From Sulfurimonas sp. (GTDB lineage: Bacteria; Campylobacterota; Campylobacteria; Campylobacterales; Sulfurimonadaceae): a DNA stretch of 33,683 nt. Where the stretch lies: the NCBI GenBank assembly GCA_024513425.1, contig JANEIH010000010.1, positions 1-33,683 on the forward strand. Direction: 5' to 3'. The notes under the pieces are model-generated. The model saw only the letters and a program-made list of their open reading frames with translations, did no database searches and was not told where the DNA came from. Below, piece after piece: positions 4,314 to 20,313 of this stretch; position 1 is the first letter of the stretch, and every line of letters starts with the position of its first letter. The position numbers and the translations under genes are program-made.

Positions 4314-4344
4314 AAGAGCGATATTTAACATAAATATCGCTCTT
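4314..4344. repeat. 14-bp perfect inverted repeat in the nuoA leader
   Basis: AAGAGCGATATTTA (4314-4327), loop ACA, TAAATATCGCTCTT (4331-4344) pair without mismatch. It ends 19 bases before the nuoA ATG, just upstream of the AAGGTAGG ribosome binding site. No T run follows, so a standard terminator is unlikely. It could be an mRNA 5' stabilising hairpin, a translational control element or a dimeric regulator operator. Confidence 0.8.
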
Positions 4345-4363: not shown

Positions 4364-4753
4364 ATGGATCATGTAGTGACTTCAAATCCGTATTTTGGGA
4401 TATTTGTACTATTTGTAATTACATTTGGTGCATTTACGGCTACGACTGTAATTGCTCGTTTGGCGAGTCGTGCGTTAGCTGCAAAAGATAGCGAAAAGAT
4501 TAAGCTTTCTGTTTATGAATGTGGACCGGAAATCACAAAACAACCAAATAGAGTGTCGCCACAGTTTTACCTGTTCGCACTGCTTTTTTTACTCTTTGAT
4601 GTTGAGATTGTATTTATGTTTCCATGGGCGGTTGACTTTAAAATTTTAGGTTGGTTTGGATTTGCTGAGATGATTATGTTTATCTTGTTGTTGGCAATCG
4701 GTTTCATATATGCATGGAGAAAAGGAGCGCTAGAATGGCACAACATAAAGTAA
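4364..4753 (+). CDS. nuoA: Complex I subunit A
   Basis: A 129-residue membrane subunit with three predicted helices, part of the junction between the peripheral and membrane arms of NADH:quinone oxidoreductase (complex I). The family motif YECGPE is followed by the conserved stretch around [14 protein letters not shown]. It opens the nuo operon; the AAGGTAGG ribosome binding site and a strong inverted repeat lie just upstream. Its last 19 bases overlap the preferred nuoB start, which implies translational coupling. Length and features are ordinary. Confidence 0.96.
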
Positions 4754-5244
4754 ATTATACACAAGACGGCGGGCTTCCGGTTGCGCTGACTTCTATTGAC
4801 AAGATTGTAAACTGGGGGCGTTCAAATTCACTTTGGGCATTAACATACGGTCTTGCTTGTTGTGGTATTGAGATGATGGCATCAGGTGCATCTCGTTTTG
4901 ACTTTGACCGTTACGGAACGATATTTCGTGCATCTCCTCGTCAGGCAGATGTTATGATTGTAGCGGGTACACTTACAAAAAAACATGCTGAGTTCATTAA
5001 GCGTCTGTATGATCAAATGACAGAACCTAGATGGGTTATCTCTATGGGTTCATGTGCAAATACCGGCGGAATGTTCAATACTTATGCAACCGTTCAGGGT
5101 GTCGATAGAATTATTCCAGTTGATTTGTATCTGCCTGGTTGTGCTCCTCGTCCTGAGACACTTCAGTATGGCGTAATGCTACTACAGAAAAAAATCCGTG
5201 CAAATAAAGCTGGAAATGCACAAAAAGCGAAAAGGTTAATGTAA
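4735..5244 (+). CDS. nuoB: Complex I subunit B (N2 cluster)
   Basis: A 169-residue peripheral-arm subunit that holds the terminal [4Fe-4S] cluster N2, which reduces quinone. Ligand cysteines are the adjacent pair C42-C43 in [11 protein letters not shown]107 in GSCANTGG and C136 in PGCAPRPE. The ORF track starts at 4714, but AAAGGAG at 4721-4727 is eight bases before ATG 4735, and [10 protein letters not shown] is the better N-terminus, so 4735 is chosen. It overlaps nuoA by 19 bases and its TAA shares one base with the nuoC ATG. All four N2 ligands are intact. Confidence 0.96.
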
Positions 5245-6050
5245 TGAGAGTGTATAAACCTAAAAACGATGTACAGGCAAAAGCTTACTATACGGATAGA
5301 TACTATGTAGCACCACAGGTTCCAAAACAGGAGATTGCTTCCGATGAAGTGTTTGCAGCTGACCTAGAGACTATCAAAACAAAATTTGAAGTAAAAGAGG
5401 CATACATTCAAGTAGAGCAGATGGTAATCTATATCAATCCACATGATATCTATGGTCTATTAGAGTTGATGCGTGATGAACTTGAATATACACAACTCTC
5501 AGAGATGAGCGCAATCGATTGGCTTGCAAAAGATAATACATTTGAGATCTTTTACCAAATGCTTTCAATGACAAAACGCAAGCGTATCCGTATAAAGTAT
5601 TTCATACAAAATGGTCAGGCAGTTGATTCTGTTGAGAAGCTTTTTCGTTCTGCAGATTGGTCAGAGCGTGAGATGTATGATATGTTTGGAATCGAAGCAA
5701 ATGGACATCCATTTATGAAAAGAATTCTTATGCCTTATGATTGGCAAGGACATCCACTTCTTAAAACATACCCGTTAGAAGGCGACGAGTTTGCTGCGTG
5801 GTATGAAGTAGATAAGATCTATGGAAAAGAAGCACGCGATATTATCGGACCTGAACTTCGTGATACGGCAAGGGTTGACAGGTATGACTCTAAGCGTTTT
5901 GCTCGCCTTGGTTTTGAAGTACCAAAAGGAACTGAGATCACAGAAGATATGGAGTCTACAGTTCAAGAGTATCAAGAAGATGGTGGAGTGTTTTTAATTA
6001 GAAAAGTAGATAAAGAGTCATCAAAAGTTATTGATGATCCTCAAAGATAG
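5244..6050 (+). CDS. nuoC: Complex I subunit C
   Basis: A 268-residue 30-kDa-type subunit of the complex I connecting module, without cofactor. The hallmark appears near residues 145-190: SEREMYDMFGI, HPFMKRILMPYDWQGHPL and KTYPLEGDE. It is separate from NuoD, unlike the NuoCD fusion of E. coli. The N-terminal portion of about 60 residues ([15 protein letters not shown] onwards) is longer than in many stand-alone NuoC proteins. Its ATG overlaps the nuoB stop by one base (TAATG), and nuoD follows after 12 bases. Confidence 0.95.
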   Translation: MRVYKPKNDVQAKAYYTDRYYVAPQVPKQEIASDEVFAADLETIKTKFEVKEAYIQVEQMVIYINPHDIYGLLELMRDELEYTQLSEMSAIDWLAKDNTFEIFYQMLSMTKRKRIRIKYFIQNGQAVDSVEKLFRSADWSEREMYDMFGIEANGHPFMKRILMPYDWQGHPLLKTYPLEGDEFAAWYEVDKIYGKEARDIIGPELRDTARVDRYDSKRFARLGFEVPKGTEITEDMESTVQEYQEDGGVFLIRKVDKESSKVIDDPQR

Positions 6051-6062
6051 GGTGGTAGAAAT

Positions 6063-7304
6063 ATGGCACAAGTAAAAAACAGATTAACACCGTTTTTTGA
6101 AAACATTACATTTGACAGAGAAGATAATGAACTCATTCTTAACTTCGGTCCGCAGCACCCTTCTGCTCATGGGCAGTTACGCCTTATGCTTCATTTACAA
6201 CAAGAGCAAATTGTAAAAGCACATCCAGATGTTGGATATCTTCACCGTGGTATGGAGAAGATGGCTGAGAATATGATCTATAATGAGTTTATGCCTACTA
6301 CTGACCGTATGGATTATATCGCTTCATCTTCAAACAACTATGGTTTTGCACTTGCAGTTGAGAAGCTCATCGGTCTTGAGGTACCGCGTCGTGCGAAAGT
6401 AATTCGTATGCTTCTTTTAGAGATTAATCGTTTGATGTCTCACCTTTTTTGGTTGGCAACAACTGCACTTGATATTGGTGCAATGACAGTATTTTTATTT
6501 GCTTTTCGTGAGAGAGAGTATTTAATGGATATTATTGAAGGGTACTGCGGGGCACGCTTAACACATGCCGCAATTCGTATCGGCGGTGTTCCTTTGGATA
6601 TTCAGGGCGACTTTTTACATCAGTTAAAAGTTTTTTTAAACAAACTTCCGCAAAACATCAAAGATTATGAGGATCTACTTGAGAGTAACCGTATCTGGAG
6701 AATGAGAATGGAAGAGGTCGGTGTGGTGCCGACTGAAATGGCACTCTCTTGGGGCTGTACAGGTCCAATGTTAAGAGCTTCCGGCGTTGCGTGGGATATC
6801 CGTAAAGAAGAACCATATGAGCTTTATGATGAAGTAGAGTTTAATGTTCCTTGGTCTGATAAGGGCGATAACTTTGCGCGTTACCGTATTTATATGGAAG
6901 AGATGAGAGAGTCTGCAAAGATTCTTTATCAATGCATGGAGATGTATGAGAAGTGCCAAAAAGATGGTCAAACTGAGCTTATGGCACATGCACCCAAATA
7001 TATCTCAGCACCAAAACTTGACATTATGACACAAAACTACTCTTTGATGCAGCATTTTGTTCTTGTAACACAAGGTATGAGACCACCGGTTGGCGAAGTG
7101 TATGTACCGACAGAGTCCCCAAAAGGTGAACTCGGTTTCTACATTAACTCTCAAGGTGGACCGTATCCATACAGACTCAAACTTCGTGCGCCGTCATTCT
7201 GGCATACAGGAATTTTAACCGACCTTTTACCAGGTCACTATATTCCGGATGTTGTATCTATTATTGGTACTACAAACATTGTATTTGGAGAGGTTGACAG
7301 ATAA
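6063..7304 (+). CDS. nuoD: Complex I subunit D (quinone-site, 49-kDa type)
   Basis: A 413-residue subunit, homologous to the large subunit of [NiFe] hydrogenases but without metal ligands, that forms the quinone pocket together with NuoB. Seen motifs are [11 protein letters not shown] with the quinone-site histidine, [23 protein letters not shown] and near the C-terminus [13 protein letters not shown] followed by RAPSFWH. Length is close to the family norm. The start follows GGTGG six to eight bases upstream. The stop overlaps the nuoE-like start by one base (TAATG). Confidence 0.96.
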
Positions 7305-7528
7305 TGAAACGCTATGATTTAAGAAATTTAAAAGATAATTTTGAGCCTCGTATGAAAGAGATTTTAGAAGAGAAACATAAGCCGACTGAGACTTTGATTT
7401 TTCTTTTTGAAATAGGCAACTTTACACCGATTCAGCGTTCAGCTGATTTGGTAAAAGAGTGTGGATATGAGTTATATAACTCACTGAAATTTAACGAAGT
7501 CGACTGGACTATCGTAGTTAAAAAATAG
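7304..7528 (+). CDS. nuoE: Miniature NuoE-position protein of Campylobacterota complex I
   Basis: A 74-residue soluble protein in the position of NuoE. Canonical NuoE is about 160 residues and binds a [2Fe-2S] cluster (N1a) with four cysteines; this protein has a single cysteine (KECGYEL) and cannot bind that cluster. The central LIFLFEIGNFTPI and the closing FNEVDWTIVVKK resemble, from memory, the small proteins that replace NuoE in Helicobacter pylori (HP1264) and Campylobacter jejuni (Cj1575c). It is translationally coupled to nuoD. It presumably supports the unusual NuoF-position protein that follows. The symbol reflects position, not proven homology. Confidence 0.8.
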   Translation: MKRYDLRNLKDNFEPRMKEILEEKHKPTETLIFLFEIGNFTPIQRSADLVKECGYELYNSLKFNEVDWTIVVKK

Positions 7529-7537
7529 GGATTTAAT

Positions 7538-9574
7538 GTGAGTAAAGTCTATTTTTCTACTTGGAAAGGCGAGTCTGTAAACAATATAGGTAAACCTCAA
7601 GAAGAGTGGGAAGAATCCGCTTATAATCTACCGGCACAATATGACGATCATCGTGACTCTAAAGCTTTTATTGGCTGGGATGGTGTCGCACTCTTTCATG
7701 AAGATGTAGATGTTATTCGTCTTGCTATGGAGTATGCTGCACAGTATCAAGAGTATAGTGAAGCATGTGGTAGATGTGCACCTGGGCGTTGGGGTGGTCG
7801 TATTTTATACGATGTACTTGATAAAATTGCTCGCGGTGAAGGTGAAGTAGCTGATTTGGATCACTTGAAAGAGATTGGTAAAAGTATGCAAATTACATCA
7901 AAGTGTGAGATCGGCAAAACTGTACCAAATCCTATTCTTGACTTAATGACACACTTTGAAGATACATTCTTAGAGTGTATCAATGAGAAAAAACAATCAA
8001 AACATTATGAAGAGAGTATTGGCTATATTGCAAAAATCACGGCTCCCTGTACAGATGCGTGCCCAAGTCATGTTGATATTCCCGCATATATTGAGGGTGT
8101 AAGAGATCTGCGTTTTGATGATTCTCTGGAAGCTACGCGTCAGACCATGCCGCTTGCACATGTTTGTGGTCGTGTCTGTCCGCACCCATGTGAAGATGCA
8201 TGTCGTAGAACAAATTTAGATGAGCCTATCTCTATTATGTCACTTAAGCGTCTCGGTGCTGACTGGGAGACGGATCATGGATTTGACTTTTTCCATCCTA
8301 TGGAGAAAAAACCATCAATTGATAAGAAAATCGCCGTTATCGGTGCAGGTCCCGCGGGACTTACAACGGCTTACTATACTGCTGTAGAGGGAATTTGTGT
8401 AGATGTTTATGAAGAGCTTCCTGTTCTTGGTGGCGAGGTAACGGTTGGTGTACCTGAGTACCGTATGCCTTGGGATAAGTACGAAAAAGATATCGAATGT
8501 GTAAAAGATATGGGTGTGAACTTTATCACAAACCGTAAAATTACAGCTGATGATATGCGTACATTTGAAAAAGAGTATGACGCTGTTATGGTAGCTACAG
8601 GTACTCGAATCTCTAAAAAAGTTCGTTGTGAAAATGAGCGTGAAGAGATTAAGGGTTACTGGGGTGCTATTGATTTTCTTGACTGGGTAAACCTCTATGA
8701 AAAGTTTGATATAAAAACACCAAAATCGATACAAGAGCAACAGATGCTAAGCCAAGACTTTGTTGACTTGACCGGTAAAATAGTTGTCTGTGTTGGTGGT
8801 GGATTTACTTCGATGGATGTTGTTCGTTGTGCGATTCGTGCCAATGCGAAAAAAGTCTATATGGTTTATCGTCGTGATGAGAATACAATCATTCGCAATA
8901 CAACCTATGAAGAGTATCACGAAGCTGTAGAAGAAGGTGTAGAATTTCTTTTCCATTCCGCAGTAAATAAGATTACAACAGATGAAAATGATATCTTGCG
9001 TGAGCTTCTAATCGATAAATTTGAACTTGTACCTGATCCTGATGGTGGGCGTCCGCAGTTGGTGAAAATTGAGGGTGAGTCATATGCGATTGAGGCGGAC
9101 TACTTAATTCCTGCTGTTTCTCAGTCGGCTGATTTAGACCTGCTTCCTGAGGAGTGGGAAATTGAGAAGACATCATGGGCTACTATCAAGACGAATGGAA
9201 AAGACTATATGACCTCACGCAAGGGTATCTTTGCTTCTGGTGACTGTGAATATGGTCCGATGACGATTGTAAATGCAGTTGGTCAGGCAAAGCGTGCGGC
9301 TTCTGTAATGTCTCGTTATGTTCAAACGGGTGAGATTACGCTTACTGATGAAGAGATTATGGAAGATCACTTGGTAAAACTGAAAGTCTATGACAAGAGA
9401 GAGAAAGTTACAGGTTGGCTTCCGGGGCTTCTGCGTGAGCACTCTGCGGTTTTAGCTGTTAATGAGCGTAAAGACAACAACAAAGAAGTAAATCTTGGCT
9501 TCACGCAAGAGCAGGCTTTGGCTGAAGCAGAGCGATGTATGCGTTGTTATTATATCGCTATGGTTCAATCCTAG
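7538..9574 (+). CDS. NuoF-position fusion: NuoF-type Fe-S domain plus GltD-like FAD/NAD(P)H oxidoreductase
   Basis: A 678-residue protein at the NuoF site. Residues about 55-150 resemble the C-terminal Fe-S (N3) domain of NuoF: ACGRCAPGRWGG, then GEGEVADLDHLKEIGK and SKCEIGK. The N3 pattern C-x2-C-x2-C...C is broken because the third ligand is Gly83 (C77, C80, G83, C123). From about 165 it is a GltD/DPD-type flavoprotein: an N-terminal Fe-S domain with C171, C175, C210, C214, C218 and C222, the FAD motif GAGPAG (269-274), a second dinucleotide motif VGGGFTSMD (about 419-427) with YRRDE, and a FAD-closing GIFASGDCEYGP. The FMN/NADH domain of true NuoF is absent. It starts with GTG at 7538 (the overlapping ATG at 7536 is followed directly by a stop). 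It probably delivers electrons to NuoG; the donor (NAD(P)H, ferredoxin or flavodoxin) is not shown by sequence. Confidence 0.88.
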   Translation: MSKVYFSTWKGESVNNIGKPQEEWEESAYNLPAQYDDHRDSKAFIGWDGVALFHEDVDVIRLAMEYAAQYQEYSEACGRCAPGRWGGRILYDVLDKIARGEGEVADLDHLKEIGKSMQITSKCEIGKTVPNPILDLMTHFEDTFLECINEKKQSKHYEESIGYIAKITAPCTDACPSHVDIPAYIEGVRDLRFDDSLEATRQTMPLAHVCGRVCPHPCEDACRRTNLDEPISIMSLKRLGADWETDHGFDFFHPMEKKPSIDKKIAVIGAGPAGLTTAYYTAVEGICVDVYEELPVLGGEVTVGVPEYRMPWDKYEKDIECVKDMGVNFITNRKITADDMRTFEKEYDAVMVATGTRISKKVRCENEREEIKGYWGAIDFLDWVNLYEKFDIKTPKSIQEQQMLSQDFVDLTGKIVVCVGGGFTSMDVVRCAIRANAKKVYMVYRRDENTIIRNTTYEEYHEAVEEGVEFLFHSAVNKITTDENDILRELLIDKFELVPDPDGGRPQLVKIEGESYAIEADYLIPAVSQSADLDLLPEEWEIEKTSWATIKTNGKDYMTSRKGIFASGDCEYGPMTIVNAVGQAKRAASVMSRYVQTGEITLTDEEIMEDHLVKLKVYDKREKVTGWLPGLLREHSAVLAVNERKDNNKEVNLGFTQEQALAEAERCMRCYYIAMVQS

Positions 9575-9583
9575 GAGTTGATG

Positions 9584-11827
9584 ATGGGTAATACAATTAA
9601 CTTTACAATAGATGGCAAACATGTAACAGCAAGCAAAGGTGAGACAATCCTTCAAGTTGCACGCAAGAACGGTCTCTATATTCCAACAATGTGTTATATT
9701 TCAAAGACTTCTCCATGTGCATCTTGTCGTATCTGTTCTGTAGAGGTTGAGGGTGTTGATGGATTTATTCTCTCATGCAATACGCCACCGACTGAAGGTA
9801 TCAATGTCGCAACAAACTCTTATGAGCTTGAGCGTGAGCGTCAAAACATTATGAAACTCTATGATGTAAATCACCCTTTAGAGTGTGGTGTATGTGACAA
9901 GTCAGGTGAGTGTGACCTACAAAATATGACATTGGAGTTTGGTCTGTCACAGCAGGAGTTCTCCGCAAAAGATCAACTTCGAATTGTAAAAGAGTGGGGA
10001 GTTATCAATTACGACCCAGCACTATGCATTATGTGTGAAAAGTGTGTGCATGTTTGTAATGAAGTAATCGGTGATGATGCAATTGAAGTAAAATTTGGTG
10101 GATATGGCTCAACTATCATTCCGAAAGATTCCGATACGCTTGATTGTACTTTTTGTGGTGAGTGTATCGCAGTTTGTCCGGTCGGCGCACTTGTAAGCAG
10201 TGATTTCAAATATAGTGCAAATGCATGGGAGCTATCGCGTATTCCATCGACATGTTCGCACTGCTCAGCCGGATGCCCACTGGAGTATGAGATACGCCAC
10301 TCCGGCATCAATGCCGATGATGCAATTTACAGAGTAAAAAATAACTTTGAATTTGCATCACTCTGCGGAGCCGGGCGTTTTGGATTTGATTTTGATGTAC
10401 AAGATAACAAAGATAAAAGAAGATTTACAGCAGCATTAAAAGTAGTTCAAAATGCAAGGGCCATCCGTTTTTCATCAATAATTACAAATGAAGAGGCACT
10501 GATTTTACAAAAAATGAAAGAGAAGCTTGGTTTGAAACTTTTTAATGAAGATGCAAGACTCTATGCTCACTTTATGAAAGCCTATGCATCTGTAAGTGGA
10601 AAACTTCACGCAACTGCAAACCTTGAAGCGATCAGAGAAGCTGATGCCATCGTTGTAATAGGGACAAGAGTCGCAACAGACAATCCTTGCGTTCGCTATG
10701 CTTTAACTACGGCAGCGCGTCATAATGGTGCAAAAATCGTCTATGCACACCCTATGGAAGATGTATTGATGAAAAATACTGTAACACAGTTTATGAAGTA
10801 TGAAGTAGGAACAGAAGAGGGTGTGATGGCTCTTCTTGCAAATGAACTTTTGAAAAATACAGATCTTGATGATGCAACAAAAGCCTTCTTTGACAATCTT
10901 GACCTAGGATATCTTGAAGCAGAAAGCAACATAGGCGATGATGAGCTCTTTTTTATGAGTAAGTTGTTTATGCGTGCTGAGAAAAAAGTACTTGTAGTTG
11001 GCGCTGATATGTTTGCTCACGCAAGGGTTCAAAACATTGCCAAGCTTGCAGCGATCATTGAAAAGCATACAGATTTCTCACTGCTTATTGTACCAAATGA
11101 GGTCAATACTATAGGTGTTTCACTTATCTGTGATTTAGATGTTGATGAAGATTTAAGAGGTGTTGTCGGGTATAATGCTCATGGAGAGTATATAATTGCA
11201 GCCGACGAAAATGCAGACTTCATTGTTCCGGCACTCAATCAACAAGAGGGAACTGTTGTTGGTATTGACAATCAGGTGTTGCCGTTAAATGCTGCACTTA
11301 GTTTTAATGGGTATGAGCTTAATGATATAGCATCTGCATTTTGTATTGAAGCTGAAAATACGATTGACTATACAAAAGAGCTACCGCAATCTGTAGGCTT
11401 TAAAGGAGTAGAGTTTGATTCACTAGAGAATTTCTTAGGGGAGTTTGGTGAAGATGAGCGTGGTTATCAGCTTGAGAGTGTAGAGTGTGTAATGGATGGT
11501 AAACTTGAAGAGGTAGCGGAACTCCCAGAGTATAATGGAACAGTTATCTATCAGGTAAATCCTGTATTGCAGTTCAATAGCTTTACAAACAAAACGAAGC
11601 AGTTAGAGCGTGATACAACTCTAAGAGGCTCCGCACAGTTTGCAGCAGTAGCGAAGATTAGTGATGGCGATGAGGTAGAGATTAGTTTAGGAGATACAAC
11701 ACAAAAAAGAGTCTTTAAACTAGATGATGAGTTAAAAGGAACAATTGCACTTAACCCTACATTTGATAGCGGTTACGATCATGGCAGTTATAGATTTCTT
11801 AAATCCAAAATAGTGAGAGTAGTGTAA
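9584..11827 (+). CDS. nuoG: Complex I subunit G, first copy
   Basis: A 748-residue iron-sulfur subunit carrying electrons along the complex I peripheral arm. Motifs in order: [2Fe-2S] ligands C37, C48, C51, C65; the His-Cys3 site HPLECGVCDKSGEC; CIMCEKCVHVC and CTFCGECIAVCPVGAL, together eight cysteines able to hold two [4Fe-4S] clusters; then an N7-type site CSHCSAGC with a later SLCGAGRF; and a molybdopterin-oxidoreductase-like domain without an obvious catalytic site. The ORF track starts at a TTG inside the ribosome binding region; AGGAG at 9573-9577 is six bases before ATG 9584, which is preferred over ATG 9581. It ends in a TAATG overlap with a second, different nuoG. Confidence 0.93.
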   Translation: MGNTINFTIDGKHVTASKGETILQVARKNGLYIPTMCYISKTSPCASCRICSVEVEGVDGFILSCNTPPTEGINVATNSYELERERQNIMKLYDVNHPLECGVCDKSGECDLQNMTLEFGLSQQEFSAKDQLRIVKEWGVINYDPALCIMCEKCVHVCNEVIGDDAIEVKFGGYGSTIIPKDSDTLDCTFCGECIAVCPVGALVSSDFKYSANAWELSRIPSTCSHCSAGCPLEYEIRHSGINADDAIYRVKNNFEFASLCGAGRFGFDFDVQDNKDKRRFTAALKVVQNARAIRFSSIITNEEALILQKMKEKLGLKLFNEDARLYAHFMKAYASVSGKLHATANLEAIREADAIVVIGTRVATDNPCVRYALTTAARHNGAKIVYAHPMEDVLMKNTVTQFMKYEVGTEEGVMALLANELLKNTDLDDATKAFFDNLDLGYLEAESNIGDDELFFMSKLFMRAEKKVLVVGADMFAHARVQNIAKLAAIIEKHTDFSLLIVPNEVNTIGVSLICDLDVDEDLRGVVGYNAHGEYIIAADENADFIVPALNQQEGTVVGIDNQVLPLNAALSFNGYELNDIASAFCIEAENTIDYTKELPQSVGFKGVEFDSLENFLGEFGEDERGYQLESVECVMDGKLEEVAELPEYNGTVIYQVNPVLQFNSFTNKTKQLERDTTLRGSAQFAAVAKISDGDEVEISLGDTTQKRVFKLDDELKGTIALNPTFDSGYDHGSYRFLKSKIVRVV

Positions 11828-14313
11828 TGAGTAAAATAGTCATAAACATTGATGGGAAAGAGATTGAGACACAAGAGGGCGAGTATCTTTTAAATGCTGC
11901 CCGTGCGAACGATATCTTCATTCCCGCAATATGTTATTTAACGCGTTGTAGTCCAACTCTTGCATGTCGTATATGTCTTGTCGAAGCAGATGGTAAACAG
12001 GTTTACGCCTGCAATGCCAAAGCAAAAGATGGAATGAGCATTACTACAAGCACAGAGAGTATTGAAAAAGAGCGTCGCGCTATTATGGAAGTTTACGATG
12101 TAAACCATCCACTACAGTGTGGTGTTTGTGACCAATCAGGAGAGTGTGAGCTTCAAAACTATACGCTTGAAATTGGAGTAGATTCACAAAGTTATGCGAT
12201 CAAAGATGTAGATAGAAGTAGTCATGACTGGGGACATCTTCACTACGATCCAGGTCTCTGTATCGTTTGTGAGCGTTGTGTAACTGCATGCAAAGATATG
12301 ATCGGTGATAATTCACTCAAGACTACTCCTCGTGGTGCTGATGCAATTGATGCCGAGTTTAAAGAGAGTATGCCAAAAGATGCCTATGCGATGTGGAATA
12401 AACTCAACAAATCAGTAATCGGTCTTACCAATGGAACAGATGTTCTTGACTGTACATCATGTGGTGAATGTGCTGCAGTTTGTCCAGTTGGCGCACTTGT
12501 AGATACGCATTTTCTATATAAATCAAATGCATGGGAGTTGAAGCAGATCCCAGCAACATGTGGACACTGTTCTGCAGGTTGTCAGATCTCTTATGATGTA
12601 AAACATACAAGTATTGAAAATCCCAAAGAGAAGATTTACCGTGTAATGAATGAGTGGAACTATGTTTCACTTTGTGGTGCGGGACGCTATGGATTTGATT
12701 ATCAAAATGCAGATGTTGTAAAAGATGAAGCAGCATTCAACACGGCACTTGAGGCATTTAAAAAAGCTACCGCGATCGCATTTACTTCTACTATTACAAA
12801 TGAGGAAGCACTTCTACTGCAGAAGATGAAGAAGAAGTTTGGATACAAACTTATCAACCCCGAAGCAAAAGCATTTCAGACTTTTATGAAAGATTACTCT
12901 GAGATTAGCGGTAGAAAACTTTATAGCTCTGACTTAGAGCGTGTGCATACGACTAACTTTATCGTATCAATCGGTTCAGCATTAAAAACTGATAATCCAA
13001 ATGCTCGTTATGCTCTTAATAACTCTCTTACGGTAAGCAAGGGCGCGGGAATCTACTTTCATCCGGTAGCCGATCCAATTATCGAAGGTCTCGGCAAAGG
13101 AGTTATGACCGTAACACATGCTCCACTGCAAGAAGAGATAGCACTCTATCTGTTGCTTGATCTCTTTGGTGATAAAGAACAGATGCCATCTGAAATCAGT
13201 GAATATTTAGCATCATTTCACTCTGAAAAAACAGTTACAGTAACTGAAGTAGTTAAAGAAAAAGTTGTTGAAGTCGTTAAAGAAGTAAAAGTGAATGAGG
13301 AGACGGGTGAAGAGGAGGAGATTGAAGTAGAAAAATCTAAAATGGTCTCTAAAAAAGTTGAAAAAGAGGTTGTTGTTGATGATAACAAACTTTTAGAGCT
13401 TTTAGGTGCAGATGATAAATTTATGGAGACTTTAGAGAAAAACCTTAAGAAAAAAGAGACTTTTGCTCTTATGGTCGGATCGGATCTTTATAGACATCCA
13501 AAATCAAAAAATCTTGCACGCTTAGTTGCCCTTGTTGAAAAATATACAAAATTTGAACTTGTAATAATCCCATCTCTTACAAATACACTTGGTGTAAGCC
13601 TGATTTGTGATCTTGATGATGAGAGAGACTCTTATACTATTGGTTATAATACAGACGGAGACTTTGTCCTCTCAGCTCTTGGTGATGGTGATTTGGATAT
13701 GCCGGCAATGAATCAGCAAGAGGGAACATTAACATCTGTTAATAAGCGTGTAAACCCTACAAATGCCGCAATCGGTTATAATGGTTATGAGTTTAATGAT
13801 ATTGCAAATGCACTTGGTTTGAAAGCTGATAATATTATTGACTATACAGCAGAACTTCCAACGATTGTCGGATTTAAGCGTGAGGAGTTTGATAACTTGC
13901 CAAATCATTATGAGAATGATGGCACCGAGATGCGTGGCTATGTGTTAGAAAATGTAGCAGTTGCGCCTTCTGGTGACGAAAGTGTAGATAAATTCAGCGA
14001 TGACAAGCTTGAAGGTAGTATAATCTACTTGGCTAATCCTGTGAGACAGTTTACCCCGTTTACACATAAAACGACTGAGCTTGATGAGGTAAGCGGTATC
14101 TATATGAGTGAAGAATTCTTGTCAAATTCTGATTTTAATGAGGGTGATACTGTAAAAATTGCAACTGATAATGGCGAATTAATCGCAAATGTAGTCAGTG
14201 ATAACAAAATAAAAGGTTCAACTGTAGTACTTCCTACTTTTGATAAAAATCTAAACTCAGAGGCTCTCTTTAGCGGATATCGCTTTAGTACAGCTTCGAT
14301 AGAAAAGGTGTAA
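11827..14313 (+). CDS. nuoG: Complex I subunit G, second copy
   Basis: An 828-residue paralogue of the preceding NuoG. It keeps every cofactor motif: [2Fe-2S] ligands C36, C47, C50, C62; HPLQCGVCDQSGEC; CIVCERCVTAC and CTSCGECAAVCPVGAL (eight cysteines); CGHCSAGC with SLCGAGRY. It differs by an extra segment between the two ferredoxin motifs (around KESMPKDAYAMWNKLNK) and by a Val/Lys/Glu-rich insert at about residues 466-521 (TVTEVVKEKVVEVVKEVKV and onward) likely to be helical or extended and solvent exposed. The C-terminal half shares blocks with copy one, such as TNEEALLLQKMK, NTLGVSLICDLD and NQQEGT. Both copies look functional. Whether both sit in one complex or in alternative forms cannot be told. 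Confidence 0.92.
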   Translation: MSKIVINIDGKEIETQEGEYLLNAARANDIFIPAICYLTRCSPTLACRICLVEADGKQVYACNAKAKDGMSITTSTESIEKERRAIMEVYDVNHPLQCGVCDQSGECELQNYTLEIGVDSQSYAIKDVDRSSHDWGHLHYDPGLCIVCERCVTACKDMIGDNSLKTTPRGADAIDAEFKESMPKDAYAMWNKLNKSVIGLTNGTDVLDCTSCGECAAVCPVGALVDTHFLYKSNAWELKQIPATCGHCSAGCQISYDVKHTSIENPKEKIYRVMNEWNYVSLCGAGRYGFDYQNADVVKDEAAFNTALEAFKKATAIAFTSTITNEEALLLQKMKKKFGYKLINPEAKAFQTFMKDYSEISGRKLYSSDLERVHTTNFIVSIGSALKTDNPNARYALNNSLTVSKGAGIYFHPVADPIIEGLGKGVMTVTHAPLQEEIALYLLLDLFGDKEQMPSEISEYLASFHSEKTVTVTEVVKEKVVEVVKEVKVNEETGEEEEIEVEKSKMVSKKVEKEVVVDDNKLLELLGADDKFMETLEKNLKKKETFALMVGSDLYRHPKSKNLARLVALVEKYTKFELVIIPSLTNTLGVSLICDLDDERDSYTIGYNTDGDFVLSALGDGDLDMPAMNQQEGTLTSVNKRVNPTNAAIGYNGYEFNDIANALGLKADNIIDYTAELPTIVGFKREEFDNLPNHYENDGTEMRGYVLENVAVAPSGDESVDKFSDDKLEGSIIYLANPVRQFTPFTHKTTELDEVSGIYMSEEFLSNSDFNEGDTVKIATDNGELIANVVSDNKIKGSTVVLPTFDKNLNSEALFSGYRFSTASIEKV

Positions 14314-14316
14314 TAT

Positions 14317-15306
14317 ATGGACAGTGCATATTTAATTGAAACGATAATCAAAGTCGTTGTAATTCTACTTATATTTTCAGCTTTAGCTGGTATTGGTACA
14401 TATTTTGAGCGTAAGATTCTTGCATTTATGCAACGCCGTTTAGGACCAATGAATGTTGGGCCGTACGGACTTTTACAAGTTGCAGCAGATGGTATCAAAC
14501 TCTTTACAAAAGAGGATATTATTCCTACGAATGTAGTTACTCCTATCTTTAAGATTGCACCTGTAATTACTGCGGCTACAGCGTTTATGGCTGCAGCTGC
14601 AATTCCTTTCTTGCCACCATTTGAGGTTTTTGGATATGAAGTACATCCAATCGTAGCTGATGTGAACATTGGTATTTTATATGTTTTAGGTATGATGGCG
14701 GTAGGGTTTTACGGTCCGCTTCTTGGCGGTATGGCATCAGCAAACAAATTCTCTTTACTTTCAGCCGCGCGTACTGCTGCAGTGTTTATCTCATATGAGG
14801 TTGTAACAGGACTCTCCCTGCTTGCTCCTATTATGATGGTAGGTTCATTATCACTTATTGATTTCAATGAGTATCAAGCCGGTGGTATCGGCGATTGGAT
14901 TGTATGGTCACAACCTGTAGCATTTATTCTTTTTTGGATCTCTGCTTTTGCTGAAACCGGTCGTACACCATTTCACCTGATTGCAAATGACCACGAGATT
15001 ATCGATGGTTTTGGCACTGAGTATTCTGGTATGAGATGGGGTCTTTTCTTCATTGGAGAGTATGCAAATATGTTCTTTATCTCATTTGTAATTCCTTTAA
15101 TCTTCTTAGGAGGTTATGGTGATGGTTCATTGTTTGGGGCGCTTGGTCTTCTTGGAAAAATGTCGTTTTTCTTCTTTTTCTTTTTATGGACAAGAGCTGC
15201 GTGGCCAGATGTAAGACCTGACCAGTTAATGTGGTTATGTTGGAAAATACTTATGCCAATAGCGGTGATTAATGTTGTAATCACTGGCTTTGTGATGATG
15301 TTTTAA
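14317..15306 (+). CDS. nuoH: Complex I subunit H
   Basis: A 329-residue membrane subunit with about eight to nine helices at the junction of the two arms, forming part of the quinone channel and the first proton path. Conserved loops are present: FERKILAFMQRRLGPMNVG, DGIKLFTKEDIIP, and FAETGRTPFHLIANDHEI followed by EYSGMRWGLFFIGEYANM. The acidic residues in these loops, important for coupling, are retained. The start ATG at 14317 follows AAAGGTG and lies three bases after the second nuoG. Confidence 0.96.
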   Translation: MDSAYLIETIIKVVVILLIFSALAGIGTYFERKILAFMQRRLGPMNVGPYGLLQVAADGIKLFTKEDIIPTNVVTPIFKIAPVITAATAFMAAAAIPFLPPFEVFGYEVHPIVADVNIGILYVLGMMAVGFYGPLLGGMASANKFSLLSAARTAAVFISYEVVTGLSLLAPIMMVGSLSLIDFNEYQAGGIGDWIVWSQPVAFILFWISAFAETGRTPFHLIANDHEIIDGFGTEYSGMRWGLFFIGEYANMFFISFVIPLIFLGGYGDGSLFGALGLLGKMSFFFFFFLWTRAAWPDVRPDQLMWLCWKILMPIAVINVVITGFVMMF

Positions 15307-15316
15307 GGGGATATGA

Positions 15317-15934
15317 ATGAGTTTAGAAGCATTTAACAATAGAAATGTAGCAGAAGGTGATTACTTTCTTGTTGCCATAGAGGAGTATCCGACAACAGGT
15401 TGGGATAAGTTTAAGCGTGTAGTAAAGAGAACTTTCAAGGGAGAGCTTTTTGTAGGTCTTTGGGTAGTGTTGCGTGAGATGATTCGTTTTGATATCCATA
15501 CTGTTCAATATCCTCAAGAGAAGATGCCAATTGGCCCAAGGTACCGTGCTGTGCATCAGATGAAAAGACTTTGGGAGTCTAATACTGAGCGATGTATCGG
15601 TTGCGGACTCTGTGAGAAGATCTGTATCTCTGATTGTATTAGAATGGATACTAAAATTGATGAAAACTCTCGCAAAGAGGTAACAGAGTACACAATCAAT
15701 CTTGGTCGCTGTATCTTCTGTGGTTATTGTGCAGAGGTTTGTCCCGAACTTGCAATTACTCACAGTGGAGAGTATGAGAATGCAAGTGAGCAGAGAGAGC
15801 ACTTCATTATCTATGAAGATATGTTAACACCGATTGATAAAATGAAAGCTGGAAAACAGCTTGAATTTGAAGGTTTTGGTGCCATCACACCACATGAAGA
15901 CGAGCGTGTTAAGAAGACACCTCTAGCATATTAA
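15317..15934 (+). CDS. nuoI: Complex I subunit I (two [4Fe-4S])
   Basis: A 205-residue ferredoxin-like subunit that passes electrons from NuoG to NuoB through clusters N6a and N6b. Two complete ligand sets are seen: CIGCGLCEKIC with a nearby C in ISDC, and CIFCGYCAEVCPEL. The N-terminal about 90 residues include amphipathic segments that lie against the membrane arm. AAGGGGAT precedes the ATG. The gene is between nuoH and nuoJ as expected. Confidence 0.96.
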   Translation: MSLEAFNNRNVAEGDYFLVAIEEYPTTGWDKFKRVVKRTFKGELFVGLWVVLREMIRFDIHTVQYPQEKMPIGPRYRAVHQMKRLWESNTERCIGCGLCEKICISDCIRMDTKIDENSRKEVTEYTINLGRCIFCGYCAEVCPELAITHSGEYENASEQREHFIIYEDMLTPIDKMKAGKQLEFEGFGAITPHEDERVKKTPLAY

Positions 15935-15946
15935 GGAGTATGAATT

Positions 15947-16513
15947 ATGTTTGAAGCAGTAGCGTTTTACTTGTTTGCATTTTTAACGATTGCGATGTTT
16001 TTTATAACAGTGACTACATCGCAAGCGTTATATGCATTAACCGCATTGGCAGCGGGAATGATTTTTATATCGGCATTTTTCTTTATCCTTGGTGCTGATT
16101 TTTTAGGTGTGATACAGATTATCGTCTATACAGGTGCCGTAATGGCTCTTTATGCCTTTGGTATGATGTTTTTTGATACGACACGCAAGGTTAAAGAGAA
16201 GAGGGGAAACAGATATATTATCGTTGGACTTTCAACTCTTACGGCAGTTTTGATTGTTGTGATTTTCGCAGCTCCTATGGTAAGCAAAAATATTGTAGCA
16301 CTTTATCCTGTGATTGAAGATGCCGGAAATATACAGCTTGTAGGCGTGATTCTTTTTACAAAATACCTTATTCCATTTGAGGTTGCGGCAATTATGCTAC
16401 TTGTGGCAATGGTTGCAGGAATTGTACTAGCCGGCAAGAAGATGGATATCTCTCTCACACTTATGAGTTCTGAAGAGATTAAAAAAGAAGAAAATAAAAA
16501 GGTGCTTTCATGA
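15947..16513 (+). CDS. nuoJ: Complex I subunit J
   Basis: A 188-residue membrane subunit with five predicted helices. The conserved third helix region reads FLGVIQIIVYTGAVMALYAFGMMF, with the pi-bulge-type segment typical of NuoJ/ND6. A charged cytoplasmic tail (KKEENKK) ends the protein. Start ATG follows AAGGAG. Its TGA overlaps the nuoK start (ATGA), so translation is probably coupled. Confidence 0.95.
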   Translation: MFEAVAFYLFAFLTIAMFFITVTTSQALYALTALAAGMIFISAFFFILGADFLGVIQIIVYTGAVMALYAFGMMFFDTTRKVKEKRGNRYIIVGLSTLTAVLIVVIFAAPMVSKNIVALYPVIEDAGNIQLVGVILFTKYLIPFEVAAIMLLVAMVAGIVLAGKKMDISLTLMSSEEIKKEENKKVLS

Positions 16514-16818
16514 TGGAAATAGGTTTAAATCATTATCTTGTTCTATCCACGATTCTCTTTGCAATAGGTCTCGCAGGTGTAATAAAGAGAAAAAACTTGC
16601 TTTTATTGTTTTTCGCAACCGAGATTTTACTAAACTCTGTAAATATCGCCTTTGCCGCTATTTCACACTATTATGGTGACTTAACCGGTCAAATGTTTGC
16701 ATTTTTCATAATTGCAATCGCTGCCTCAGAAGTTGCTGTAGGGCTTGGTCTATTAATTGTATGGTATAAGCGTCATGGAAATATCGACCTAGAAACCATG
16801 AAAAGTATGAGAGGATAA
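16510..16818 (+). CDS. nuoK: Complex I subunit K
   Basis: A 102-residue subunit with three helices, homologous to MrpC and ND4L. The conserved membrane glutamates are present in LLLLFFATEILLNSVNIAF and in the later IAIAASEVAVGLGLL, both needed for proton coupling in studied homologues. Two in-frame ATGs occur (16510 and 16513); the first overlaps the nuoJ stop by four bases and is used here, but the second is equally possible. Confidence 0.95.
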   Translation: MMEIGLNHYLVLSTILFAIGLAGVIKRKNLLLLFFATEILLNSVNIAFAAISHYYGDLTGQMFAFFIIAIAASEVAVGLGLLIVWYKRHGNIDLETMKSMRG

Positions 16819-16821
16819 GCC

Positions 16822-18750
16822 ATGGAAACATTATTATATATAGCACTTTTTGCACCACTTGTTAGTTCAATGTTTTCTGCGTTATTTACAACAACGCCAA
16901 AGAAAACATTTGTTGGTGTAATTGCTTCACTATTAATCTTTACTTCTTTTGTAAGCACTAGTTTGCTCTTGGCATCGATTGTGATTAATGGCAATGAATC
17001 TGTTCATGTTGAGATGATGACATGGATGGCGACCGGGAATTTATATATTCCTTTTGGGTTTATTGTTGATAAAGTATCAGTTACTATGATGATGGTCGTA
17101 ACACTTGTTTCTACCATTGTTCATATCTACTCTATCGGCTACATGGATCACGATAAGAGCTTTAATAGATTCTTTGCATGGTTGTCGGCATTTGTTTTTT
17201 CAATGATGGTTCTTGTTATGAGTGATAACTATGCCGGTCTTTTTATCGGCTGGGAAGGTGTTGGTCTTTGCTCTTGGGGGCTTATTGGATTCTGGTTTCA
17301 CAAAGAGAGCGCTACATGGGCAGCAAATGAGGCATTTATCATGAATCGTATCGCTGACCTTGGAATGTTGATCGGTATCTTTTTGGTATATTGGAATACA
17401 GGTACGCTTCAGTATGAAGGTGCATTTGAAGTATTTAAAACATTGGATCCTGCTACATTAACTTGGATCGGTATCTTCTTGTTTATCGGTGCGATGGGTA
17501 AATCGGCACAGTTTCCACTCCACACATGGCTTGCAGATGCAATGGAGGGCCCTACCCCAGTATCGGCCCTTATTCACGCAGCAACAATGGTAACAGCAGG
17601 TGTATATCTTGTTATTCGTTCAAATGAGCTTTATAGCTTGATCCCTAATGTTGGTCTATTTATCGCTTCGCTTGGTGCATTTGTTGCACTCTTTGCGGCA
17701 TCTATGGCACTTGTTAATCGTGATATGAAACGCATCATCGCATACTCTACGCTTTCACAGTTAGGATATATGTTCGCAGCAGCCGGTCTTGGTGCATACT
17801 GGGTGGCACTTTTCCACCTTGTGGCTCACGCATTCTTTAAAGCACTTTTATTTCTTGGTGCCGGTAATGTAATGCACGCTATGCATGATGAGCTTGATCC
17901 ATTTAAAATGGGTGGACTAAAGAAAGTGATGAAGTGGACTTGGATTATGATGACTATTGCCTCTTTGGCATTAGCAGGAATCTTTCCATTTGCAGGTTTT
18001 TTCTCAAAAGATACAATTTTAGAAGCAGCATTTGCAGAACATCATTTTGTAATTTATGGAGTACTTCTTTTTACCGCAGGTTTGACGGCATTTTATTCAT
18101 TTAGACTTGTAGCGCTCATCTTCCATGGTGAAGAGCGTTATAAAATCTTTGGCATTTCTCCACATGAAGCATATAGATTTATGCTTGTTGCGATGAGCCC
18201 GCTTTTAATTCTTGCAATGATTGCAGGTGTGCTTCAAGAGCCGTTCTTTCATATGATTGAAGAGATTTTGTCAGCACATGAGTACCATATCCATTCACAT
18301 ACTACACTTTGGATTATGTTAGTTGGAACACAAGTTTTCGTTGCTTTAGCGATTCTTTATGCATATAAAAAATATGCAAATGCATTTATTAAGGTACCAG
18401 ACGGTACAAGTGCAATTGAAAACTCATTTGTATATAAATTTTTATATAATCAGTACTATATTCCTTATTTCTATGAAGAGTATCTTGTAAAACCATATAG
18501 AGAGCTCTCTGATATATTCTGGAATAAAGTCGATATGAAAATTCTTGATGCAAGTGTTGATGGAATCGCAGGCATCATCTATGGTACCGGTGAAAAAACA
18601 AGAGCAATGCAGAGCGGTAACCTCTCTGTGATGTTAAGATGGATGGTAGTTGGTTTTGTGGTACTACTTTCATTAGCTGTAGTTTTTGGACTTACGGCAA
18701 GATATTCTGAAAATATCACGGTGATATTTTCAGGTTTAGGAGCTATGTAA
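16822..18750 (+). CDS. nuoL: Complex I subunit L (antiporter-like)
   Basis: A 642-residue subunit with about 16 helices, the distal proton-pumping unit of complex I and a relative of MrpA antiporters. Core motifs are retained: GWEGVGLCSWGLIGFW with the key glutamate, GKSAQFPLHTWLADAMEGPTP with lysine and aspartate/glutamate residues, SALIHAATMVTAGVYL, and AHAFFKALLFLGAGNVMHA. The C-terminal part (after about residue 500) contains the long amphipathic lateral helix typical of NuoL. The stop codon is immediately followed by the nuoM ATG with no spacer. Confidence 0.96.
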   Translation: METLLYIALFAPLVSSMFSALFTTTPKKTFVGVIASLLIFTSFVSTSLLLASIVINGNESVHVEMMTWMATGNLYIPFGFIVDKVSVTMMMVVTLVSTIVHIYSIGYMDHDKSFNRFFAWLSAFVFSMMVLVMSDNYAGLFIGWEGVGLCSWGLIGFWFHKESATWAANEAFIMNRIADLGMLIGIFLVYWNTGTLQYEGAFEVFKTLDPATLTWIGIFLFIGAMGKSAQFPLHTWLADAMEGPTPVSALIHAATMVTAGVYLVIRSNELYSLIPNVGLFIASLGAFVALFAASMALVNRDMKRIIAYSTLSQLGYMFAAAGLGAYWVALFHLVAHAFFKALLFLGAGNVMHAMHDELDPFKMGGLKKVMKWTWIMMTIASLALAGIFPFAGFFSKDTILEAAFAEHHFVIYGVLLFTAGLTAFYSFRLVALIFHGEERYKIFGISPHEAYRFMLVAMSPLLILAMIAGVLQEPFFHMIEEILSAHEYHIHSHTTLWIMLVGTQVFVALAILYAYKKYANAFIKVPDGTSAIENSFVYKFLYNQYYIPYFYEEYLVKPYRELSDIFWNKVDMKILDASVDGIAGIIYGTGEKTRAMQSGNLSVMLRWMVVGFVVLLSLAVVFGLTARYSENITVIFSGLGAM

Positions 18751-20313
18751 ATGTTAGATCATATTTTATCGATTTTAATTTTCTTTCCAGCAATAGCAGC
18801 TGTGTTTGGTTTTATGATTCAAAAAGATAGTATTCGTGCCTACGGTATTAGTGTGGCAACTATTGAGTTTGGATTGTCACTGTGGTTATGGTTTACATTT
18901 GATGGAAATGTTTCCGGAATGCAGTTTATGGAGAATCTTCCGTTAGTACCGTCTTTTGGTGTTAACTACATCTTGGGGGTAGATGGAATCTCTCTGTTTA
19001 TTATTGTACTTGCAGCATTCTTTACGATGATAGGTATAGCATCACTTACTGAGACCCCTAATGAAAAGAATATGATTATCACAATTTTGTTCTTACAGAT
19101 GACGATGGCAGGTGTATTTGCCGCATTAGATGCGATTGTGTTTTATGTGTTTTGGGAGCTCTCCCTTGTTCCAATGCTTTATATTATTGGTGCATGGGGT
19201 GGACCACTTCGTATATATGCGTCGATTAAGTTCTTCCTCTATACATTTGCAGGTTCACTTGTAATGCTTGTCGGTATGCTTTTTATGGCATACTTTTTCT
19301 ATCAAGCAACAGGCACATGGTCTTTTGCACTGCTTGATTGGTACAGACTGATTTTACCAGAAACATTGCAATTGTGGCTATTTGCAGCTTTTTTTATCGG
19401 TTTTGCTATCAAGGTTCCAATGTTTCCGTTCCATACATGGTTGCCATATGCGCATGGTCAAGCACCGACTATAGGTTCTGTGATACTTGCGGCGATTCTA
19501 CTTAAAATGGGTACATATGCATTTATCCGTTTTTCATTGCCACTATTTCCGGATGCTTCCGCAGCATTTATGGTTCCAATCGCTGTAATTACGATCATTA
19601 TGATTATCTATACTGCGATGATTGCGTACGCACAAAAAGATGTGAAGCAGGTTGTTGCTTATTCGTCAATCTCACATATGGGTGTTATCATTCTCGGTAC
19701 ATTCGCACTTAATGTTGAAGGCATTACAGGTTCAATCTTTTTAATGATTGCTCACGGTGTTGTATCTGGGGCTCTGTTTTTACTTGTAGGTGTTATCTAT
19801 GATAGACGCCATACAAAACTTATGAGTGAATTTGGTGGGCTTGCACATATTATGCCGAGATATGCAACTATCTTTGGTATCATGTTAATGGCTTCAGTCG
19901 GCATGCCGCTTACAATTAACTTTGTTGGTGAGTTCTTATCACTTTTAGGGTTCTATCAACAATCTCACATCTTAACACTATTGGCTGGAACCGCGATTAT
20001 TGTTGGTGCTATTTATATGTTGTCGGCATACAAAAAAATGTTTTTTGGCGATGTTACAAAAGAGGAGAATAAAAATCTTCCTGATATAAACAAAAGAGAG
20101 TTAGTAGCACTCATTCCTCTTTCTGTAATTGCGATCTGGCTAGGTATCTATCCTAAACCGATTCTGGAGCCTATTAACAACTCCGTTGAGGCAGTTGTGC
20201 GGTTAATGCATAATAAAGCACAGAGTGAGTTGGCAAAAGAGAGAATCCCCAATCTGGTAAAAGAGAGAGCTTCAGTTATCAAAAAAACTGTTATTGAAGA
20301 GGAGGTGCACTAA
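18751..20313 (+). CDS. nuoM: Complex I subunit M (antiporter-like)
   Basis: A 520-residue membrane subunit with about 14 helices, the middle antiporter-like proton channel. Conserved signatures include FYVFWELSLVPMLYIIG with the essential glutamate, KVPMFPFHTWLPYAHGQAPT with the channel lysine, and VVAYSSISHMG. A TTAGGAG ribosome binding site lies inside the end of nuoL. It ends with a TAATG overlap to nuoN, preceded by a strong GAGGAGGTG Shine-Dalgarno. Confidence 0.96.
   Translation: MLDHILSILIFFPAIAAVFGFMIQKDSIRAYGISVATIEFGLSLWLWFTFDGNVSGMQFMENLPLVPSFGVNYILGVDGISLFIIVLAAFFTMIGIASLTETPNEKNMIITILFLQMTMAGVFAALDAIVFYVFWELSLVPMLYIIGAWGGPLRIYASIKFFLYTFAGSLVMLVGMLFMAYFFYQATGTWSFALLDWYRLILPETLQLWLFAAFFIGFAIKVPMFPFHTWLPYAHGQAPTIGSVILAAILLKMGTYAFIRFSLPLFPDASAAFMVPIAVITIIMIIYTAMIAYAQKDVKQVVAYSSISHMGVIILGTFALNVEGITGSIFLMIAHGVVSGALFLLVGVIYDRRHTKLMSEFGGLAHIMPRYATIFGIMLMASVGMPLTINFVGEFLSLLGFYQQSHILTLLAGTAIIVGAIYMLSAYKKMFFGDVTKEENKNLPDINKRELVALIPLSVIAIWLGIYPKPILEPINNSVEAVVRLMHNKAQSELAKERIPNLVKERASVIKKTVIEEEVH

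Follow-up and report, generated by a model that had tools for sequence, protein, structure and literature searches.

A tandem pair of complete NuoG subunits and a StnC-like protein in the complex I operon of Sulfurimonas: a proposed branched complex and its reduced relatives in Campylobacterota

Why should a single complex I operon carry two nuoG genes in tandem, and do their products serve one complex or two? The question arises from the window analysed here, a stretch of 33,683 nucleotides from Sulfurimonas sp. (assembly GCA_024513425.1, contig JANEIH010000010.1), which contains a complete nuo operon on the plus strand (4364..21821) in the order A-B-C-D-X-Y-G1-G2-H-I-J-K-L-M-N. The original prediction for this locus offered two answers, a branched complex with two electron inputs (bifurcating or ferredoxin-linked) or two alternative complexes sharing one membrane arm. 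The genes and sites on which the argument draws are the following.

4364..4753, plus strand: nuoA (PF00507, NF006303)
4714..5244, plus strand: nuoB, carrying N2 (A-B-C-D order kept among relatives)
5244..6050, plus strand: nuoC (PF00329, NF006304)
6063..7304, plus strand: nuoD (open reading frame, synteny)
7304..7528, plus strand: nuoX, 74 aa, HP1264 orthologue (phmmer to 2lxr_A)
7538..9574, plus strand: Y, the protein in the 'NuoF position', 678 aa (PF10589, PF14691, PF07992; PDB matches; conservation)
9584..11827, plus strand: nuoG1, 747 aa, with sites for N1b, N5, N4, a putative extra [4Fe-4S] and N7, and a Mo-enzyme-like C-terminal half
10025..10177, plus strand: dicluster part of nuoG1, N4 at C148,151,154,198 and putative extra cluster at C158,188,191,194
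11827..14313, plus strand: nuoG2, 828 aa, with sites for N1b, N5, N4, a putative extra [4Fe-4S] and N7, and a C-terminal half
12259..12483, plus strand: dicluster part of nuoG2, N4 at C145,148,151,219 and putative extra cluster at C155,209,212,215
14317..15306, plus strand: nuoH (synteny)
15317..15934, plus strand: nuoI, N6a and N6b (NF004542, 340 bits)
15947..16513, plus strand: nuoJ (synteny)
16510..16818, plus strand: nuoK (synteny)
16822..18750, plus strand: nuoL (NF005141)
18751..20313, plus strand: nuoM (synteny)
20313..21821, plus strand: nuoN (synteny)

Directly 5′ of nuoA lies an inverted repeat with a 14-bp stem (4314-4344), terminator-like on the minus strand.

Both nuoG frames are open and without stops, and both products score above the cut-off (591 bits) of NF006305, the Campylobacterota NuoG model, NuoG1 with 894 bits in two stretches and NuoG2 with 1175 bits across positions 2-817, in agreement with the prediction of two divergent, intact copies. 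nuoG1 starts with an ATG at 9584, close downstream of an RBS-like GGAG, and shares one base with nuoG2 (TAATG overlap), so that translation of the two genes is probably coupled. The products are 43.7% identical overall, with the Fe-S half (52%) more alike than the C-terminal half (39%), and by these values are divergent paralogues. This identity, together with the retention of all ligands and the grouping of NuoG2 in one clade (100/100), ruled out a pseudogene or a recent duplication. NuoG1 is 91% identical to the copy of S. indica, the host being a Sulfurimonas near that species, and dozens of named Sulfurimonas, Sulfurovum and Nitratifractor loci ruled out an artefact of a single genome. The pair is not special to this genome; it is the rule in non-pathogenic Campylobacterota.

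The predicted [2Fe-2S], His-Cys3 and N7-type sites and the two complete CxxCxxCxxxC motifs are present in both copies. N1b would be coordinated by C37,48,51,65 in NuoG1 and C36,47,50,62 in NuoG2, N5 by H97,C101,104,110 and H94,C98,101,107, and N7 by C224,227,231,261 and C245,248,252,283, respectively; the two motifs comprise C148,151,154,158 and C188,191,194,198 in NuoG1 and C145,148,151,155 and C209,212,215,219 in NuoG2. The N1b, N5 and N4 ligands are kept in 83/83 relatives of NuoG1 and in 121/121 of NuoG2. The N7 site of NuoG2 (12559-12675) is lost in 45/121 relatives, of both the long and the short locus type described below and independently of the extra cluster. An AF2 model of the full NuoG1 had a mean pLDDT of 75.6, with values below 50 across much of the Fe-S half, and was not used for geometry; since the model is poor precisely there, cluster geometry rests on alignment.

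The original prediction took canonical NuoG to have only four cysteines in this section, which fits the aligned NDUFS1-type sequence (CxxCxxC ... CP), and suggested one extra [4Fe-4S] cluster per copy, provided that the additional cysteines were suitably placed. In the alignment they coincide with the dicluster cysteines of HydA1 (8a6t), FdsA (6tg9), NiFe-HydA and the solved NuoG 7q5y. Moreover, the NuoG domain of StnC has been solved with four [4Fe-4S] and one [2Fe-2S] clusters (PMC10482914), the same complement as predicted for the Sulfurimonas NuoG copies. In NuoG2 all eight dicluster cysteines are invariant (121/121), Campylobacter and Helicobacter types included. In NuoG1 the extra quartet C158,188,191,194, made up of the fourth cysteine of motif one and the first three of motif two, the expected ligands of the second cluster, is intact in 51/83 relatives and lost in 32/83: all four positions are changed in 29 of these and three of the four in 3, and none of the 83 has lost just one or two, while the N4 set is kept in all 83. 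The losses sit in Sulfurovaceae-type loci, and the NuoG1 tree requires between one and three events to account for them, hence they document covariation of the quartet but not many independent tests. The dicluster alignment, the StnC structure and this nearly all-or-none loss together support a possible extra cluster in each copy; the pattern of loss suggests that it is dispensable in NuoG1 and not in NuoG2.

The protein encoded upstream of nuoG1 bears directly on the kind of input that this second wire could have. The first 150 residues of Y correspond to the N3 domain of NuoF (PF10589) and the remainder to a GltD-type FAD/NAD(P)H domain (PF14691, PF07992), whose best PDB matches are the StnC-like chains 9bov_A/8oh5_C and Nfn. 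Y lacks a match to the Complex1_51K FMN/NADH domain (PF01512) and, by its domains, is not a NuoF. Eight NfnB-type cysteines (171,175,210,214,218,222,667,670; the last two in a C-terminal RCMRC) and R309 are kept in 76/76 Y sequences; in NfnB the equivalent arginine holds N5 of the FAD. At the FAD-proximal cluster all 76 have a lysine (Lys237), in place of the glutamate ligand of NfnB. The equivalent lysine of Stn (K170) is strictly conserved and that FAD is non-bifurcating (PMC10482914), so that, as regards this residue, Y is StnC-like. A YRR nucleotide motif is likewise present in 76/76. The N3 site of Y (7766-7906, residues 77-123) has only C77, C80 and C123, in a CGRCAPG context, the canonical third cysteine being Gly83 in 76/76. 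An N3 cluster in Y is thus uncertain, and the three-cysteine site may hold a [3Fe-4S] cluster, a cluster with a non-cysteine ligand, or none. In a Helicobacteraceae-type genus (g43; L138, L140-L142) the N3-like and GltD domains of Y are separated by an insert of about 250 residues, which brings the protein to about 890-960 aa.

X is an orthologue of H. pylori HP1264 (phmmer against structure 2LXR, chain 2lxr_A, E=2.8e-21), which is reported to bind FMN (PMC6269979). Searches of the Sulfurimonas sp. genome (1.35 Mb, 91 contigs, listed as 99.96% complete, a caveat that all absences carry) gave no match for a PF01512 protein of the NuoF/HydB type, for PntB or for Flavodoxin_1. The genome thus holds no HydB/StnB-type FMN subunit such as StnABC and HydABC have, and the nuo operon contains no StnA/StnB-like partner. 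Elsewhere NuoF does accompany Y, in 27/126 Y-positive genomes.

The gene order was then read in the loci of named genomes and of further members of the phylum. Among 128 loci spanning X to NuoH, 86 carry Y and a full NuoG1, and 41 are of a short type without Y and without the NuoG1 Fe-S half. The short loci are of Campylobacter, Helicobacter, Sulfurospirillum and Arcobacter type, labels that, beyond the named genomes, rest on family grouping and protein length, not on record names. The sole outlier (L058), which brings the long type to 87, has Y and NuoG1 each split in two frames beside an intact NuoG2, either by sequencing error or by early decay of the Y-NuoG1 module. Y accompanies NuoG1 throughout the long type and, this broken locus excepted, none of the 128 has NuoG1 without Y or Y without a full NuoG1. 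One MAG titled 'Helicobacter pylori PMSS1' (L114) clusters with long-type Arcobacter loci in the tree and is probably mislabelled. One family (f5) has genomes with ATP-citrate lyase in which the Campylobacterota NuoG model finds nothing, in line with the description of a Nautilia complex I without nuoEFG (PMC2628731).

In short-type loci, a protein of 229-339 aa stands between X and NuoG2. In hhalign, where each E-value is a single comparison, it matched the C-terminal half of NuoG1 with E=2.6e-69 for the Arcobacter type (NuoG2: 6.5e-26), 5.5e-54 for the Sulfurospirillum type (NuoG2: 3.2e-15), 2e-27 for the Campylobacter type (NuoG2: 6.1e-6) and 1e-14 for the Helicobacter type (NuoG2: 2.2e-3), and none of the four groups gave a signal to Y or to either NuoG Fe-S half. 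Its AF2 model (pLDDT 90.9) matches formate dehydrogenase-type and NuoG C-terminal domains, e.g., 3i9v_3. These results suggest that the short protein is a C-terminal stump of NuoG1 from which the Fe-S half is missing; a remnant of NuoF or of Y was rejected, given the strong match to NuoG1 and the lack of any to Y. By synteny it occupies the position of Cj1574c/HP1265, called NuoF, NuoY or NuoF replacement in the literature. In C. jejuni, flavodoxin is reported to deliver its electrons to complex I by way of Cj1574c and to depend on this protein for it (PMC4178425). The motif LDxGYLSAESNxGEEE (NuoG1 residues ~439-455) occurs in full NuoG1 as well as in all short forms and was not seen in the NuoG2 of the window; it is a candidate docking surface.

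On a locus tree built from the NuoG2 Fe-S half and NuoH, the distribution of the long and short types needs three changes, and well-supported branches make all three unavoidable. One falls within the Helicobacteraceae-type family, another belongs to the Campylobacter + Sulfurospirillum-type clade, and the last falls within the Arcobacter-type family. This tree cannot itself separate gain from loss. However, NuoG1 is homologous to NuoG2 over its whole length, so that the stump would be derived, and the simple reading is that Y and the NuoG1 Fe-S half were lost jointly in three independent lineages. In the NuoG tree every NuoG2 falls in one clade (100/100), and NuoG1 plus NuoG2 separate from five PDB outgroups (99/94); the outgroup branches are long, and the duplication can be dated no more closely than before the sampled families.

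From these observations we lean towards a single branched complex I holding both NuoG copies, with Y and NuoG1 as an added NAD(P)H port. NuoG2 would be the standard wire, leading to NuoI, NuoB and menaquinone, and is placed at the canonical site beside NuoI because this copy is never lost. NuoG1 would have its own site within this complex: even without clusters its C-terminal half has been retained, which would not be expected of an interchangeable wire. The N3-like domain of Y would serve for docking on NuoG1, in the way NuoF docks on NuoG, a placement suggested by the fact that Y and the NuoG1 Fe-S half go together. The two would form a port built like StnC (GltD + NuoG) but divided over two subunits, and electrons would pass from NAD(P)H to FAD, the two GltD clusters, the N3-like domain of Y, the NuoG1 clusters and NuoG2. 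X, of the HP1264 type and presumably with FMN, would be a second port on the ferredoxin/flavodoxin side, serving short-type complexes too. Joint loss of Y and the NuoG1 Fe-S half, in three lineages or more, would have left the C-terminal half as a small 'NuoF-replacement' subunit, whose role could be purely structural.

An unlikely alternative, though the one that survives best, is the second answer of the original prediction, in which NuoG1 (with Y) and NuoG2 would swap on the same NuoI and membrane arm, giving one NAD(P)H form and one ferredoxin/flavodoxin form. The full ligand set in each copy, the single set of membrane-arm genes and the fact that Y travels only with NuoG1 would all suit such an exchange. 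However, adjacent genes overlapping by one base favour equal dosage, and the clusterless C-terminal half of NuoG1, kept beside an intact NuoG2 in three lineages, implies a place of its own, which favours the branched complex.

The bifurcating version of the branched complex fared less well. A proton-pumping complex I in which the FAD of Y couples NADPH, ferredoxin and menaquinone by confurcation or bifurcation, the high- and low-potential branches being the two NuoG wires, and whose Campylobacter and Helicobacter descendants lost this function three times, has in our judgement little chance of being correct; bifurcation as such is opposed by the StnC-type lysine in the GltD domain and by the lack of a NuoF/HydB-type FMN subunit in the genome. 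We also consider it quite improbable that Y and NuoG1 have no wiring to quinone and form a StnC-like NADPH:ferredoxin oxidoreductase, either soluble or loosely attached: the architecture GltD plus NuoG is that of StnC, and Stn is soluble, but Y has a NuoF-type N3 docking domain at its N-terminus, the operon still contains the C-terminal half of NuoG1, whose product works with complex I in C. jejuni, and the StnA/StnB-like partner and the PF01512 protein are missing from operon and genome, respectively. Flavin-based bifurcation or confurcation at the FAD of Y, by which complex I would couple NADPH to both ferredoxin and menaquinone, is just as improbable and, in its classical form, disfavoured, for all eight NfnB-type cysteines, the FAD-holding arginine and two possible one-electron paths (X/NuoG2 and NuoG1) are offset by a lysine in 76/76 where NfnB has glutamate, as in the non-bifurcating StnC, and by the missing FMN-type HydB partner.

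For the branched complex with an NAD(P)H port at Y, NADPH is the favoured carrier, given the GltD/StnC kinship and the conserved YRR motif. In Sulfurimonas-like chemolithoautotrophs the complex would probably run mostly in reverse, the proton-motive force pushing menaquinol electrons uphill onto NAD(P)+ and ferredoxin to supply the rTCA cycle. ATP-citrate lyase is present in 103/126 Y-positive versus 16/271 Y-negative genomes, an association that is imperfect and clumped by descent; together with the 23 Y-positive exceptions, mostly of Helicobacteraceae type, this makes it only suggestive of reverse electron transport as a main use of the Y-positive complex. Flavodoxin occurs in 193/204 short-type versus 69/126 long-type genomes, as expected if the port remaining in the short type uses flavodoxin, and consistent with a change of partner. 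Flavodoxin as the sole partner was rejected, as the Sulfurimonas sp. genome has none.

The ancestral complex I of most Campylobacterota would likely have had two electron ports together with two NuoG wires, an arrangement that could explain how rTCA autotrophs of vents and sulfidic waters obtain both NAD(P)H and ferredoxin from menaquinol. An extra NuoG cluster, the replacement of NuoEF and FMN-less NuoF-like proteins of reverse transport have each been described separately (PMC10482914; PMC6682613; PMC3578206), and the extra cluster in itself is already known, as StnC, HydA and FdsA align. The new part would be the surroundings, that is, the double NuoG and StnC-like Y that most Campylobacterota have in common, and the origin of the stump. 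A literature search, outside which key subscription papers lie, gave no report of two NuoG in one complex I and none deriving Cj1574c/HP1265 from NuoG, and we are unsure of priority on both points.

Among known systems, 7q5y NuoG, HydA1 and FdsA share the second full CxxCxxCxxxC motif and are single-copy subunits of other complexes, unlike the tandem NuoG pair. NUO-2 of Nitrospina gracilis and Kuenenia has a subunit, also named NuoG2, with an additional [4Fe-4S] cluster (PMC3578206) and is set apart by its description, with a single NuoG and a NuoF2 with extra ferredoxin-like clusters. Sporomusa StnABC (StnC, 8oh5/9bov) shares the GltD domain with the FAD-proximal lysine and the NuoG domain with one [2Fe-2S] and four [4Fe-4S] clusters. 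However, StnC holds GltD and NuoG in one polypeptide, whereas Sulfurimonas has separate genes for Y and NuoG1, and StnC is joined to a HydBC-like bifurcating FMN module, whereas the two Sulfurimonas proteins would be subunits of a membrane complex I, in a genome with no HydB-like protein. The complex I of C. jejuni (Cj1575c/Cj1574c) and H. pylori (HP1264/HP1265) has the same operon order, X and an eight-cysteine NuoG2, and lacks NuoEF; unlike Sulfurimonas, where Y and NuoG1 are both complete, this short type has no Y, and of NuoG1 the C-terminal stump is all that remains. Cj1574c/HP1265 would then be what is left of a second NuoG, kept after the loss of the NAD(P)H port, an origin that makes the flavodoxin entry site testable in these organisms.
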